The position numbers and the translations under genes were made by a program. Shown in pieces: positions 23,944 to 30,399 of a stretch of 64,000 nucleotides of DNA. This DNA is from Mucilaginibacter celer (GTDB lineage Bacteria; Bacteroidota; Bacteroidia; Sphingobacteriales; Sphingobacteriaceae). The DNA lies in contig NZ_CP032869.1 of assembly GCF_003576455.2 (NCBI RefSeq), forward strand, positions 4,960,001 to 5,024,000. Direction: 5' to 3'. Below the pieces are notes generated by a model. That model was not told where the DNA came from, did not search any database, and saw only the letters and a program-made list of their open reading frames with translations. Position 1 is the first letter of the stretch. Each line of letters starts with the position of its first letter.

Positions 23944-26511
23944 TTAACGCTCATCCGATTTATTGGAGCAGATCTTCTCAAAAGGAACGTGGTATTCCTC
24001 CCCTAACGATTTTTCGTACTCGGCAGCAAACTCATCATATACTTTGCGGGCATGCTCAATGCCACGGGTACGGCGCAAAGCTTTGATTTTAAATTTAATA
24101 GCGATATCGTTAAAAGGATCGATATTTAAAACAACCCGCGAGATTTCAAGCGCTCTTTTATAATCAAACGAGTCGTAAACCTTTTTAATCACCGGCAAAA
24201 TTACCGGCATCAGGGCTTCTTCATACTCCTGTTTAAAATCATCCAGCCAAATTTCGGGAATATGCTGCAGTAATCCGCCGCGTGCTACCAGATCAAAGTG
24301 GTTAAATAAAGATTGCTCAGCATTGCCGGCCTGTTTCAGATCGTCCCTTACAATAAAGTAATCGCAATAAAAATCATCGGCTATAACAAAGCTATAGGTA
24401 TCATTAAGGAAAGTAAGTTCCAGCCCCTCAATATCCGAAAGGATCTTACGCAGGTGATTGATGGTAACTCCGCGGATGTTTTTGGTTTTAGCTACATCTT
24501 TATCAGGCCAAAGAATAGTGGAGATCTTCTTAGAGATCACGCCACTCTTATCACGGCTATTCAATAAAATAAGGATAAAAAGCTGTTTAATTTTCGAGCT
24601 GAACAGGTAAGTGATATCCTTCGCGTTTTTATCAAATACGGTAAACTCACCCAACAGGTACACCGCGTTAGCCCTGCTGCCGGGCTCGTTCTCTTCCCTA
24701 TAGGTAATAACAGGCGCTTCATTACCAGCCGGAGCGGGCACCTCATCATCAGTTCTTTTTCGTTTCAGAAAAAACATCACTATGCCGGCTAACAGCAGCA
24801 GGGCTGAAACACCGCCCAAAACCCGGTACAGCGTAAATGTTTTTTGGCGCGGCTGATGTGCTGCAAGGTAATCCAGCTCGCTTACCGGAGGCGCAGTAAG
24901 GGCGAAAATCTTTATTACCGATTGCGATGGTGTAATAAACTCCTGCGTGGTACAATAAAACACATCCTGCGTGGCATTGTAAAACAGGTTATGATCTGTT
25001 TCTATGCGTTCGGATACAACAGGGATCGTTCCGCTTACTATCTGGTACGATCCGTCCTTTATCGAAAACTTGTAAAGCCGCATGGCGGTTTTTGGTTTTT
25101 CGTGCGGATAGCAAAGCGCGTAAAAAAACTGCTTATCTTTTGAAATGATCAGGTTATTGGCCGGCACAAAGGCTTCTTCGTTAGGCTTTATATCCCATAG
25201 TTTTTTAACGGTATGGGTACTTAAGTTAACCCGGTACAAATCATAATAGTGCATCCCGCCAACCACCTGGTTGCCCGACTGGTTGCCATAACCGCCAAAA
25301 ATATAAACATCATTATTGCTATCGGCCGTACTGCTGGCCGAAAAAAAGCGGGGGGTGATCACATCGCCGGTAAAATTCTGGATCTGCCAGTTATCCGTTA
25401 TCTTATCGTACTTAAAAAAATCTTTATAGTATTTAAACGAACCGTAACCGCCAAACAGGTACAGGTTATTAAAATCCTTATCGTAAAATATATTATGGTG
25501 ATGCCTTTGCTCGGTAATGGTTGCGCGGCCATAAAAATCCCAGGTAAGGCTGTCAAGGTTAAAAGCCGCTATGCTGGGAGATGGCTTTGGCGCCCGTAAC
25601 ACTTCGTACAGGTAGCATTTGTTCTCTTTTACATTAATAACGCTTTTACCGAGGTGTAGTGGTACATCCAGTTGTTTTTTGAAGGCTTTGGCCCAGGCAT
25701 TGCCGCGTTCGTTGTCATAATAAAAAACCGAATCGTTTTTAAAAATAAAAAACTGCCCTGTACGCTGGTTAAAATTTAAGCCGGCAACCTCATTAAACGT
25801 TCGCGTATACTTTTGCTTCCAAAAATACGATTCGTTAATGAGCCAGGACGGGTTATCAACATGGCCCAAATCATCTCCTTCGGCGCTGTACACATCGTTG
25901 CCGGTCCACTCATTTAACTGGAAGCTGTATCGATCATCATCATTGCTTACTACCAGATTTTTGATAGCCATATTGGGCACGTCCGAATAATGTTCGTTTT
26001 TTCCAAACGTGATCCTGGCAGTCATTTTACCATCAAAACCCAAACCACCGGCGCGGTACCATTTACCGTCGACCGAAACACCCACCTTATCGCCTTTCAA
26101 ATCCAGATCCACCACAATCTTCATCCATTTGCGCCTTTTTAACACGCTATTGGCAAGCGGGATATTCAGTTTATTGCTACGGCTATCAATATTAAAATTA
26201 AGAAAGGACCCCATGTTGTAAATAGAGCTCAGGCTATAGGAGTTACCTTTTACATCGGTTAAATTTAAAATATAACCGAGGTGTTGATTATCCCATAACG
26301 AAAGATCGAAGGAGATAACAACACGATTGTGAAATGTAGGAGGGTCTTGCTTAAACACCTGGTACGAGGTGCGTTTGCTCATCAGGCTGTCGTTCGATCC
26401 GAACTGGAGGCCCTGGCCATTACCTTTTAGCGCAGGGAGCAGCATAATAAAAAGCAATACAATCTTACATGCCTTTTTACGAAGCATTAAAATTTTATCT
26501 TTTTTTATCAT
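23944..26511 (-). CDS. Membrane-anchored LamG-kelch sensor with SARP-like DNA-binding domain
   Basis: Protein of 855 residues. Order: signal/anchor (about 10-33), a concanavalin/LamG-like domain (about 40-200; VVISFDLSLWDNQHLGYILN, KWMKIVVDLDLKGDKVGVSV), kelch propeller repeats (about 230-540; NLYLFGGYGSFKYYKDFFKYD, DVYIFGGYGNQSGN) and one membrane helix (about 563-585, GGVSALLLLAGIVMFFLKRKR). A cytosolic winged helix follows (about 616-710, LLGEFTVFDKN, GVISKKISTILWPDK, GVTINHLRKIL), then a BTAD-type helical repeat (about 720-850). This is a one-piece receptor-regulator with periplasmic sensing and C-terminal DNA binding. It diverges from an outer-membrane operon and the gap holds three direct repeats, its likely sites (inference). 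Confidence 0.8.
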   Translation of the reverse strand: MIKKDKILMLRKKACKIVLLFIMLLPALKGNGQGLQFGSNDSLMSKRTSYQVFKQDPPTFHNRVVISFDLSLWDNQHLGYILNLTDVKGNSYSLSSIYNMGSFLNFNIDSRSNKLNIPLANSVLKRRKWMKIVVDLDLKGDKVGVSVDGKWYRAGGLGFDGKMTARITFGKNEHYSDVPNMAIKNLVVSNDDDRYSFQLNEWTGNDVYSAEGDDLGHVDNPSWLINESYFWKQKYTRTFNEVAGLNFNQRTGQFFIFKNDSVFYYDNERGNAWAKAFKKQLDVPLHLGKSVINVKENKCYLYEVLRAPKPSPSIAAFNLDSLTWDFYGRATITEQRHHHNIFYDKDFNNLYLFGGYGSFKYYKDFFKYDKITDNWQIQNFTGDVITPRFFSASSTADSNNDVYIFGGYGNQSGNQVVGGMHYYDLYRVNLSTHTVKKLWDIKPNEEAFVPANNLIISKDKQFFYALCYPHEKPKTAMRLYKFSIKDGSYQIVSGTIPVVSERIETDHNLFYNATQDVFYCTTQEFITPSQSVIKIFALTAPPVSELDYLAAHQPRQKTFTLYRVLGGVSALLLLAGIVMFFLKRKRTDDEVPAPAGNEAPVITYREENEPGSRANAVYLLGEFTVFDKNAKDITYLFSSKIKQLFILILLNSRDKSGVISKKISTILWPDKDVAKTKNIRGVTINHLRKILSDIEGLELTFLNDTYSFVIADDFYCDYFIVRDDLKQAGNAEQSLFNHFDLVARGGLLQHIPEIWLDDFKQEYEEALMPVILPVIKKVYDSFDYKRALEISRVVLNIDPFNDIAIKFKIKALRRTRGIEHARKVYDEFAAEYEKSLGEEYHVPFEKICSNKSDER

Positions 26512-26702: not shown

Positions 26703-26755
26703 AAATGTTAAATTTTAGCGATGAAATGTTAAATGTACAGTACTAAATGTTAAAT
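26703..26755 (+). promoter_or_regulatory. Three direct AAATGTTAAAT repeats at 21-bp period
   Basis: AAATGTTAAAT occurs identically at 26703-26713, 26724-26734 and 26745-26755, starts exactly 21 bases apart (two helical turns), with unrelated 10-base spacers. The last copy ends 3 bases before a possible -33 TTG (26759-26761); a near-consensus -7 TATATTTTG lies at 26780-26788. Positions just upstream of the promoter suit an activator. SARP-type regulators are known to bind direct repeats spaced by helical turns, and a SARP-like protein is encoded next door. Confidence 0.7.
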
Positions 26756-26806
26756 AGCTTGCATAACTAACTATTTAGTTATATTTTGGCTCCCATAACG
26801 AACCTT

Positions 26807-29614
26807 ATGAAAATCACATTTATTGGACTATTGCTACTTTGCTTCGGCTTTACCACTTCATTTGCTCAAACCGGCTATAGCGTAAAAGGTAAAGTGGCCG
26901 ATACGGTAGCCAACTCAAATCTTATCAATGCCAGTGTAAGCGTAATTACCGCTAAAGATTCCATCCTTCAAAAATTTACCCGGGTTAAAGATGATGGTAC
27001 TTTCACCATCAGCAATCTTAACAAAGGCAAATTTATTTTAGTGGCTACCTACCCCGGCTATGCCGATTTTGTAGAGCGCTTTACTTTAGATTCGGCACAT
27101 ACCACCCACAATTTTGGCACCGTAAGTATGCTGCTTAAAGAGCGCCTTTTAAAAGAGGTAATTGTAAAAGGCAAAGCCGCAGCCATTAAAATTAAAGGCG
27201 ATACCACCGAGTTTAACCCGGCCGCCTATAATATCCAACCCAACTCGAAGGTGGAAGACCTGCTGAAGCAGCTTCCGGGCATTGAGGTGGATAAGGATGG
27301 TAAAATCACCGCGCAGGGCCAAACGGTAAAAAAAGTACTGGTTGATGGCGAAGAGTTTTTTGGCGACGACCCAACCCTGGTTACCAAAAACCTGCGCGCC
27401 GATATGGTTGATAAAGTACAGCTGTATGATAAAAAAAGCGACCAGGCAGCCTTTACCGGTATTGACGATGGCGTGAAAGATAAAACCATCAACATTAAAT
27501 TAAAAGAAGATAAAAAGAACGGCTACTTTGGCAAGCTTGACGGTGGCCTTGGTACCGATGGTTACTACCAGGGGCAGGCTTTGTTTAACCGCTTTAAAGG
27601 CAAGCAAAAATTTTCGCTTTATGGCACCTTAGGCAATAACGGCAAAACCGGTTTGGGCTGGGAGGATAACAACAAATACGGCGGCGGCGGTAACATGGAG
27701 TTTGGCGATGATGGCGGCTTCTATATTTTTGGTGGCGGGGGTGATGATCTTGACAGCTTTAACGGCCGTTATGATGGCGAAGGCAAACCCGTAGCCCGTA
27801 CCGGTGGCGCGCACTATGATACTAAATGGAACGGCGATAAAGAATCGTTAAACACCAACTACAAAATCGGCTCGCTTACAGTTGATGGCACCAAAAATAC
27901 CCAGCAGCAAAACAACTTTCCGGGTAACATATCAACTGTAAACAGCGATCAGTATAATCACAATTACCTGTTCCGCCAGAAGCTGGATCTGAATTACCAG
28001 GTCAAAATAGATTCGATGCAGAACCTGAAAATAACGGCAGACGGTACTTTAAGAAACAGTAATACCAAAAGCATATTCAATACACAAACCAACCGGTTGG
28101 ATGGCAGCCGCATAAACACCAACTCGCGCGATAACAGTGCCGATGTTGATGGCAAGGTTTTTAACGCTACTGCATTTTATACCAAAAAATTTAAAAAGAA
28201 AAGCCGCACCTTATCGGTAAACTTCAGGGCAGGCTATAACGACAGCGATTCGAAAGGTTTTCTGAAATCGAACACCACGTTTTATGATTCGGTTGGTGTT
28301 TTTGCAAGAGATACCACTATTGATCAGTACAAGGTTAACAAAAGCAAAAGTACCAACATCAACACCAATATCACCTATACCGAACCACTGGCCAAGGATT
28401 TTACTTTGGCCCTAAGCTATGCCATATCTGTAAACAATGCCACTAACGACAGGCGTACCTTTAATAAACCCAATACCGGTAATACCACCGTTTATAATAC
28501 GTTAGATAGTGTTTACAGCAGCGATTATAAACTTAACCAGTTGTCAAACCAGGGCGGTGCCGTGTTTAACGTACAAAAACAAAAGTTCTCGTTTAACTTT
28601 GGCACCAAGGTAGCCGGCGTCAAATTTAAACAGGTTGATGAGTTTGGCCGCATGGCCGATTTAACCCGCAACTTCACCAACTGGTATCCGCAGGCCAGCT
28701 TTCAATATAAGTTCAGCAAGCAATCAAGCGTGCGGATAAGCTATAACGGTAACACCACGCAACCCAATATTGATCAGATCCAACCCGTACGTGTAAATAC
28801 CGACCCGCTCAATATTCAAACTGGTAACGCGGCCTTAAAACCATCGTTCACCAACCGTTATAACATCAGCTATAACTCGTATAAAGTAATCAGCAACCAG
28901 TACATCTGGATCAGCGGTTCGTATTCAACCACCAGTAATCCTATTGTGAGCAATGTGGTGCGCGATACTACTACGGGTATCAGCACTTATCAATCGTCAA
29001 ACCTTAAAAATCGCTCAACCAATAACTTTTGGGCAAACAGTTATTTTGAGCGTAAAATTCCGGGATTGGATATTAACGCCGGTTTCGAGTTATCAGCCAG
29101 CGGTAATACCTATTATAACCTGTCAAACAATGTGCTGAATGAAACCAAAGCATACAATTACTCGGGCAACATCCGGTTTTCTAAGTATAAAGAAAGGAAA
29201 TATGATGCCTGGATTTCAGGCGGCCCTACTTATACCGTAAACTCGTCATCGTTAAATTCGGCTTTAAACAATAACGGCAGAGGGTTTAATGCTTATGGTG
29301 GTTTCAATATTTATCTGCCTGGCAAATTCCAGATCGGCACAGATGGCAACTATACTTATAACGCCCCTACCAAATCATTCCCGCAGGATTTCAGACGCTT
29401 TTTGCTGAATGCAAATATCTCGCGTACCTTCCTGAAAGATGCTTTAAAGGCCTCTATTACGGGCAACGACTTGCTGAACCAAAATACCGGCTATAACCGT
29501 ACCGGATCGGCAAACGTACTTACCCAGGAGCGTTATACCACTATCCGCAGATACTTCATGTTCTCACTCACCTGGGATTTTAATAAAGTTGGAGGCGGCG
29601 CACCTAAAAAATAA
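26807..29614 (+). CDS. Outer-membrane beta-barrel with carboxypeptidase-like regulatory domain
   Basis: Protein of 935 residues from ATG 26807 (MKITFIGLLLLCFGFTTSFAQ signal peptide); an upstream TTG at 26786 is less likely. After the signal comes a CarboxypepD_reg-like domain (YSVKGKVADTVANSNLINAS, about 22-105). A plug-like segment follows (SKVEDLLKQLPGIEVDKDGK, TVKKVLVDGEEFFGDDP), then a large barrel of alternating strands. The C-terminus RRYFMFSLTWDFNK suits outer-membrane assembly. A Gly/Asp-rich insert (GGGGNMEFGDDGGFYIFGGG, about 290) stands out. This matches the TonB-receptor-like OMP_b-brl family. It forms an operon with GLPGLI (8-base gap) and lies behind the 21-bp repeat array. Confidence 0.88.
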   Translation: MKITFIGLLLLCFGFTTSFAQTGYSVKGKVADTVANSNLINASVSVITAKDSILQKFTRVKDDGTFTISNLNKGKFILVATYPGYADFVERFTLDSAHTTHNFGTVSMLLKERLLKEVIVKGKAAAIKIKGDTTEFNPAAYNIQPNSKVEDLLKQLPGIEVDKDGKITAQGQTVKKVLVDGEEFFGDDPTLVTKNLRADMVDKVQLYDKKSDQAAFTGIDDGVKDKTINIKLKEDKKNGYFGKLDGGLGTDGYYQGQALFNRFKGKQKFSLYGTLGNNGKTGLGWEDNNKYGGGGNMEFGDDGGFYIFGGGGDDLDSFNGRYDGEGKPVARTGGAHYDTKWNGDKESLNTNYKIGSLTVDGTKNTQQQNNFPGNISTVNSDQYNHNYLFRQKLDLNYQVKIDSMQNLKITADGTLRNSNTKSIFNTQTNRLDGSRINTNSRDNSADVDGKVFNATAFYTKKFKKKSRTLSVNFRAGYNDSDSKGFLKSNTTFYDSVGVFARDTTIDQYKVNKSKSTNINTNITYTEPLAKDFTLALSYAISVNNATNDRRTFNKPNTGNTTVYNTLDSVYSSDYKLNQLSNQGGAVFNVQKQKFSFNFGTKVAGVKFKQVDEFGRMADLTRNFTNWYPQASFQYKFSKQSSVRISYNGNTTQPNIDQIQPVRVNTDPLNIQTGNAALKPSFTNRYNISYNSYKVISNQYIWISGSYSTTSNPIVSNVVRDTTTGISTYQSSNLKNRSTNNFWANSYFERKIPGLDINAGFELSASGNTYYNLSNNVLNETKAYNYSGNIRFSKYKERKYDAWISGGPTYTVNSSSLNSALNNNGRGFNAYGGFNIYLPGKFQIGTDGNYTYNAPTKSFPQDFRRFLLNANISRTFLKDALKASITGNDLLNQNTGYNRTGSANVLTQERYTTIRRYFMFSLTWDFNKVGGGAPKK

Positions 29615-29622
29615 ACCTTGTT

Positions 29623-30399
29623 ATGAAAAAGATATTAACCCTTACAACCCTACTTATATTAACTGCCAACCTGCTGATGGCGCAGGCCAACAAGCATTTT
29701 ACCTTTCATGGTGTTATTGAATACGACAAAACATCAAATGTATGGGCAATGCTGCAAAAAGCTATTAATAAAGACAATGAAACCTGGTACCAGCCCAGGT
29801 ACGAACAATACAAAAAAAACAAGCCTCAGTTTAAAGTACTAAAAAGTACCCTGAAATTTGGCAACAACCAAACCTTGTTTACACCTATTGAGCCGGAAAC
29901 ACCAACGGCCGGTTATTGGAGCGAGCCGATGATGGTATCACAAAACAGTACTATATTTTCTGATTTCAACACCGGAATGAGCACCAGCCAAAAAAGTGTA
30001 TTTGAAGAAACCTTTTTAGTAAAAGATACTACCCGCCGCATTAAATGGAAGCTTACCGGCGAAACCCGCGAAATTGCAGGCTATCCGTGTCGCCGGGCCA
30101 ACGGACTGATCCTCGATTCGATTTACGTAGTAGCATTTTATACCGAGGAAATCCCTGTTTCGGGCGGTCCCGAATCATTTAATGGCTTGCCGGGGATGAT
30201 ATTGGGGGTAGCCCTCCCACACGAAAACGTAACCTGGTTTGCCACCAAAGTTAGCGAACTACCTATCGACGAAAAATCGCTAACAGCACCTAAAAAAGGT
30301 AAAGCAGCCACCAATAAAAGCTTCATGACCGTTTTACAAAACGCAATGAAAGATTGGGGTACCGAGGGGAAGGAGTATTTGAAAGGATTTTCGTTATGA
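29623..30399 (+). CDS. GLPGLI-family protein
   Basis: Exported protein of 258 residues with signal peptide MKKILTLTTLLILTANLLMAQ. The family-naming motif appears as SFNGLPGMILGVAL (about residue 185), preceded by YPCRRANGLILDSIYVVAFYTEEIP, as in other members. The function of the family is unknown, but its genes regularly follow TonB-like outer-membrane barrels in Bacteroidota. That is the arrangement here, 8 bases after the barrel gene, so it probably works with that barrel in the periplasm. The operon closes with a 21-bp perfect hairpin. Confidence 0.88.
   Translation: MKKILTLTTLLILTANLLMAQANKHFTFHGVIEYDKTSNVWAMLQKAINKDNETWYQPRYEQYKKNKPQFKVLKSTLKFGNNQTLFTPIEPETPTAGYWSEPMMVSQNSTIFSDFNTGMSTSQKSVFEETFLVKDTTRRIKWKLTGETREIAGYPCRRANGLILDSIYVVAFYTEEIPVSGGPESFNGLPGMILGVALPHENVTWFATKVSELPIDEKSLTAPKKGKAATNKSFMTVLQNAMKDWGTEGKEYLKGFSL

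Follow-up and report, generated by a model that had tools for sequence, protein, structure and literature searches.

PhoP of Riemerella anatipestifer (RAYM_RS09740), an OmpR-family regulator, is encoded second in a kinase-first operon and binds its own promoter; in the motif obtained for it by DAP-seq, TTTAACA are the most conserved bases (PMC9603813, PMC5399024). It also binds the promoters of moxR and of an outer-membrane barrel gene, directly controls five GLPGLI genes, and serves as both an activator and a repressor, the outer-membrane barrel gene tested by EMSA being repressed, not activated, by it (PMC9603813, PMC5399024). E. coli ArcA, a member of the same family, binds direct repeats of two to five elements that are spaced one or two helical turns apart (PMC3798270), and the R. 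anatipestifer PhoP motif has been reported to be ArcA-like. RprXY of Bacteroides and Porphyromonas is a kinase and OmpR-type regulator pair that has been implicated in stress responses; we found no binding motif for it in PMC3646045 or PMC6032018, and the likeness to the system described below is one of pair type. Finally, the operators of BlaI, MecI and CopY are palindromes that overlap promoters and are found 5′ of BlaI-M56 operons, with TACANNTGTA as the classical BlaI/CopY core (PMC7253601).

The window, meaning the whole 64,000-nucleotide stretch of DNA analyzed here, contains a repeat array and a promoter between two divergent transcription units, with the following features:

23944–26511, minus strand: divergent gene of P0001, a membrane-bound Kelch/SARP-like regulator (Kelch Pfam hits, BTAD in its orthologues and an AfsR/EmbR-like fold)
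26703–26713, plus strand: box 1, AAATGTTAAAT, which reads ATTTAACATTT on the minus strand and is kept at the same place in the nearest relatives
26724–26734, plus strand: box 2, AAATGTTAAAT, 21 bp from box 1 (from sequence and conservation)
26745–26755, plus strand: box 3, AAATGTTAAAT, 21 bp from box 2
26759–26761, plus strand: −33-like TTG of the barrel operon promoter, conserved in the aligned promoters of close relatives
26763–26782, no strand assigned: perfect inverted repeat ATAACTAA-CTAT-TTAGTTAT, lying between the −33 and −7 elements and missed in the preliminary description
26766–26779, no strand assigned: palindrome core ACTAA-N4-TTAGT within this inverted repeat
26782–26789, plus strand: −7-like TATTTTGG, from the aligned promoters, mostly TAYYTTGG in close relatives
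26807–29614, plus strand: first gene of the operon, encoding the outer-membrane beta-barrel protein P0002 with a CarboxypepD_reg domain (Pfam OMP_b-brl_3, E 4.8e-37)
29623–30399, plus strand: second gene of the operon, encoding the GLPGLI family protein P0003 (NCBIfam TIGR01200, E 5e-46)

Direct reading of the sequence confirmed that the three 11-bp repeats are identical and recur at an exact 21-bp period, and that the 10-bp spacers between them, TTTAGCGATG and GTACAGTACT, are unrelated to each other, as the preliminary description had stated. This is the only triple of identical, equally spaced 11-mers (spacing of 11–60 bp) in the window, and none occurred in ten control windows generated by a first-order Markov model. 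Within the 7.15 Mb genome, the array constitutes the sole 21-bp pairing of AAATGTTAAAT when up to one mismatch is allowed. The array is not a chance occurrence, because it is conserved in relatives: in those that have it, it lies directly 5′ of the barrel gene, and its distance from the barrel start codon is about 50–60 bp in every close relative. Most of the 21-bp arrays in barrel promoters also have their TGTTAA starting 18 bp before the palindrome.

The Bacteroidota promoter consensus consists of −33 and −7 elements, which the TTG and TATTTTGG resemble. As the array ends 3 bp before the TTG, which itself precedes TATTTTGG by 20 bp, the promoter that had been suggested just beyond the array is reasonably placed. 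Transcription would then start near 26792, placing the box centres near −42, −63 and −84. The idea that the array consists of regulator sites in helical phase, immediately 5′ of the barrel-GLPGLI promoter, was supported.

The barrel protein has orthologues in 140 of the 150 genomes of the genus Mucilaginibacter (112 of the 118 good genomes), and we compared 71 barrel promoters. The TGTTAA/TTAACA core is kept in them while its arrangement turns over. TGTTAA pairs are spaced by 21 bp in 25 promoters and by 10 bp in 18; TTAACA pairs, on the same strand of reading, are spaced by 10 bp in 25 promoters and by 21 bp in nine. A pair of either kind at 10/11 or 20–22 bp is present in 65 of the 71 promoters, whereas shuffled sequences averaged 0.015. 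Either orientation and either spacing can occupy the same promoter position, which is what a factor recognizing one half-site every turn or every second turn would produce. Outside the barrel promoters, three core copies (spacings of 21 and about 19) lie 5′ of an ffh-like gene in one genome (G043, L107 7199), and some of the 21-bp pattern matches in genomes of other families (L045, L044, L067) resemble short tandem repeats and not promoter boxes.

Genome-wide, the tandem form TTTAACA-N3-TTTAACA matched at 52 sites, compared with 4 for the reversed control, and the excess was similar in six other genomes; these counts are pattern matches with reversed controls, complemented by individually fetched sites, and the relatives are not independent of one another. 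The spacing spectrum of exact pairs in three genomes peaked at 10 bp (33 versus a mean of 3.2), the spacing used by most of the boxes genome-wide, with a slight excess at 21 bp (8 versus 3.2, two of the 8 being this array). About three quarters of the 42 box sites that were read fall outside long open frames, and the genes 3′ of boxes include those for BamA (with five POTRA domains), the BamD-like YfiO, SurA, HtrA, FtsX and MoxR. The two forms of the box are connected by the gene of a TPR-like secreted protein, since it carries the 10-bp form here, whereas its homologue in G013, G017 and G031 carries the 21-bp form; the homologues are 52–55% identical and also lie behind a serine-hydrolase gene.

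One of the tandem boxes is located 46 bp 5′ of a histidine kinase gene, which is followed, in the order read in G000, by the gene of an OmpR/PhoB regulator:

Genome position 6442703: histidine kinase P0004
Genome positions about 6444539–6445231: response regulator P0005 (Response_reg and Trans_reg_C domains)

The kinase is present in all of the 118 good genomes of the genus, and a tandem box was found in the kinase promoter in 32 of the 32 genomes read, with a 21+10 spacing in G037 (L109). This arrangement has the published gene order of the kinase-first operon of R. anatipestifer PhoP with its upstream box. The other points of comparison agree with it: each repeat of the array contains, on its minus strand, the TTTAACA core of the PhoP box, and the targets moxR, GLPGLI and outer-membrane barrel are shared, through the MoxR box (L354) and the barrel-GLPGLI array. 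The likeness concerns motif, operon order and targets, and R. anatipestifer belongs to another family of Bacteroidota; three 21-bp boxes and a BlaI-type palindrome distinguish the present promoter. The ArcA sites are similar to the array as direct repeats of the OmpR/PhoB family, but their period is 11/22 bp, as compared with 10/21 bp here, and the physiology differs; we do not claim an ArcA in this organism.

Because the kinase promoter carries the box, and because of the parallels with R. anatipestifer PhoP and ArcA, the reader of the array is most likely a regulator of the PhoP/RprY type. It is probably P0005, as indicated by the conserved box at its own kinase promoter. In the mechanism we propose, three response-regulator boxes, each presenting TTTAACA on one strand and lying two helical turns apart, would face one side of the DNA directly 5′ of the −33 element in the promoter that serves the barrel and GLPGLI genes, and P0005, whose own promoter carries the same tandem box, would bind them. 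As the boxes adjoin the −33 element, the bound regulator probably activates transcription, in contrast to the repression of the Riemerella barrel gene that was tested.

Another response regulator of the OmpR/PhoB or LytTR type, sharing the motif preference, might read the array in place of P0005, and Bacteroidota do have many response regulators. LytTR regulators recognize 9-bp direct repeats with 12-bp spacers, which places the repeats 21 bp apart, the very spacing of the array. A LytTR reading (21 as 9+12) was in fact considered first, and it was dropped on the grounds of the 10-bp form and of the strand flips in orthologous promoters. The exchange of 10- and 21-bp spacing between orthologous promoters and the prevalence of the 10-bp form in the genome fit an OmpR/PhoB tandem and not LytTR, and the conserved box of the kinase promoter indicates P0005; we therefore regard a reader other than P0005 as unlikely.

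The preliminary description had assigned the array to its divergent neighbour, proposing that P0001, bound to the three repeats, acts as the activator of the barrel operon. Its view of the protein itself, as a membrane-bound SARP-like regulator, held up. Sequence searches of Pfam and PDB with the P0001 C-terminus alone returned nothing useful; with an alignment and a structural model, BTAD was matched in 13 of 25 orthologues, and the model of the C-terminal part (pLDDT 91.5) matched AfsR and EmbR in Foldseek with E of about 1e-6. SARP proteins recognize direct repeats spaced by helical turns, and the cytosolic part of P0001 shares their fold. P0001 is also adjacent and divergent to the array both here and in G027, and an orthologue is present in 20 of the 25 genomes whose arrays are of the forward 21-bp form, compared with a genus average of 56 of 150 (47 of the 118 good genomes), an excess that we ascribe to putative shared ancestry.

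Across genomes, however, P0001 and the array are unlinked. The array is intact in five genomes that lack P0001 (G056, G052, G111, G145 and G153), and in three more (G020, G113 and G177) P0001 is on another contig or far from it. Conversely, the conservation of the array beside orthologues of the regulator, which had been put forward as a test, largely failed: the neighbours of P0001 orthologues elsewhere vary, and most of these loci have no array nearby. The core occurs, in addition, at dozens of unrelated promoters, and at the kinase promoter whether or not the genome contains P0001. By this comparison of genomes, the Mucilaginibacter array goes with the barrel-GLPGLI operon and not with P0001, and activation of the operon by P0001 through the repeats appears very improbable. 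In G013, G017, G031 and G042, a TolC-MacA-ATPase-FtsX operon, absent from the window, is located between P0001 and the array with its barrel operon (L075 9126–13789; L074, L076 and L079).

Least probable of all, and hardly to be entertained, is that the repeats, although A+T-rich, phased and immediately 5′ of the −33 element, form an UP-like element for RNA polymerase itself with no dedicated regulator, as the specific GTTAA/TTAAC core is retained where spacing, orientation and flanking bases change, and the element is enriched far above control and lies at promoters whose genes form a coherent functional group.

Besides the boxes assigned here to P0005, the promoter contains the palindrome ACTAA-N4-TTAGT, which is exact in 60 of the 71 barrel promoters and present with one mismatch in 8; it is also found in many Pedobacter barrel promoters. 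The same palindrome, when one mismatch is allowed, occurs in the 300 bp 5′ of the gene of the BlaI-family protein P0006 in 27 of 30 genomes, an arrangement expected of autoregulation, and an M56-like gene is found 3′ of the P0006 gene. The recurrence of the barrel-promoter palindrome 5′ of a BlaI gene suggests that it is a probable operator for a BlaI-type repressor. Like the BlaI/MecI/CopY operators (PMC7253601), it overlaps a promoter and is found 5′ of a BlaI-M56 operon; the classical core was looked for in it and is not there. A literature search for a BlaI operator of Bacteroidota gave nothing useful. A BlaI-family repressor would probably sit on ACTAA-N4-TTAGT, and the occupied palindrome would block the promoter. 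PadR was also considered as the binder of the palindrome; the genome has a single clear PadR gene, and this candidate was set aside once BlaI fitted.

The combination of box and palindrome is not a general one, since only 2 of the 52 box sites, at MoxR and, weakly, at BamA, form such composites elsewhere (0.3 expected). The MoxR promoter (L354 1614–1650) has a tandem box together with a palindrome copy that carries one mismatch (GCTAAATTTTTAGT). Exact palindromes number 13 in the genome (L111–L123) and include two tandem pairs, at 1764806/1764823 and at 4655144/4655173, the latter preceding the gene of an FtsX-like permease.

Taken together, these sequence comparisons make it likely that the array is a set of PhoP/RprY-type boxes read most likely by P0005, probably for activation, and accompanied by a probable BlaI-type operator. 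A broader proposal, which we put forward tentatively and hold to be somewhat less than an even chance, is that the TTTAACA boxes define a conserved envelope-quality-control regulon of the Sphingobacteriaceae, comprising BamA, BamD, SurA, HtrA, FtsX, MoxR and GLPGLI/barrel, under a universal PhoPR/RprXY-like pair that would be a candidate Bacteroidota counterpart of the envelope stress responses of Cpx and sigma-E; the barrel-GLPGLI promoter would add to it a BlaI/M56 protease switch through the second operator.

These findings correct an inference that comes naturally but is probably mistaken, namely that an operator belongs to the divergent regulator encoded beside it. They also present, in the barrel promoters, a site that shifts between one- and two-turn spacing and flips its orientation, yet keeps its place. 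Little is understood of the GLPGLI/barrel operons that abound in Bacteroidota, and a tie at the sequence level between them, the core genes of outer-membrane assembly and one universal two-component system provides a testable candidate for envelope monitoring.
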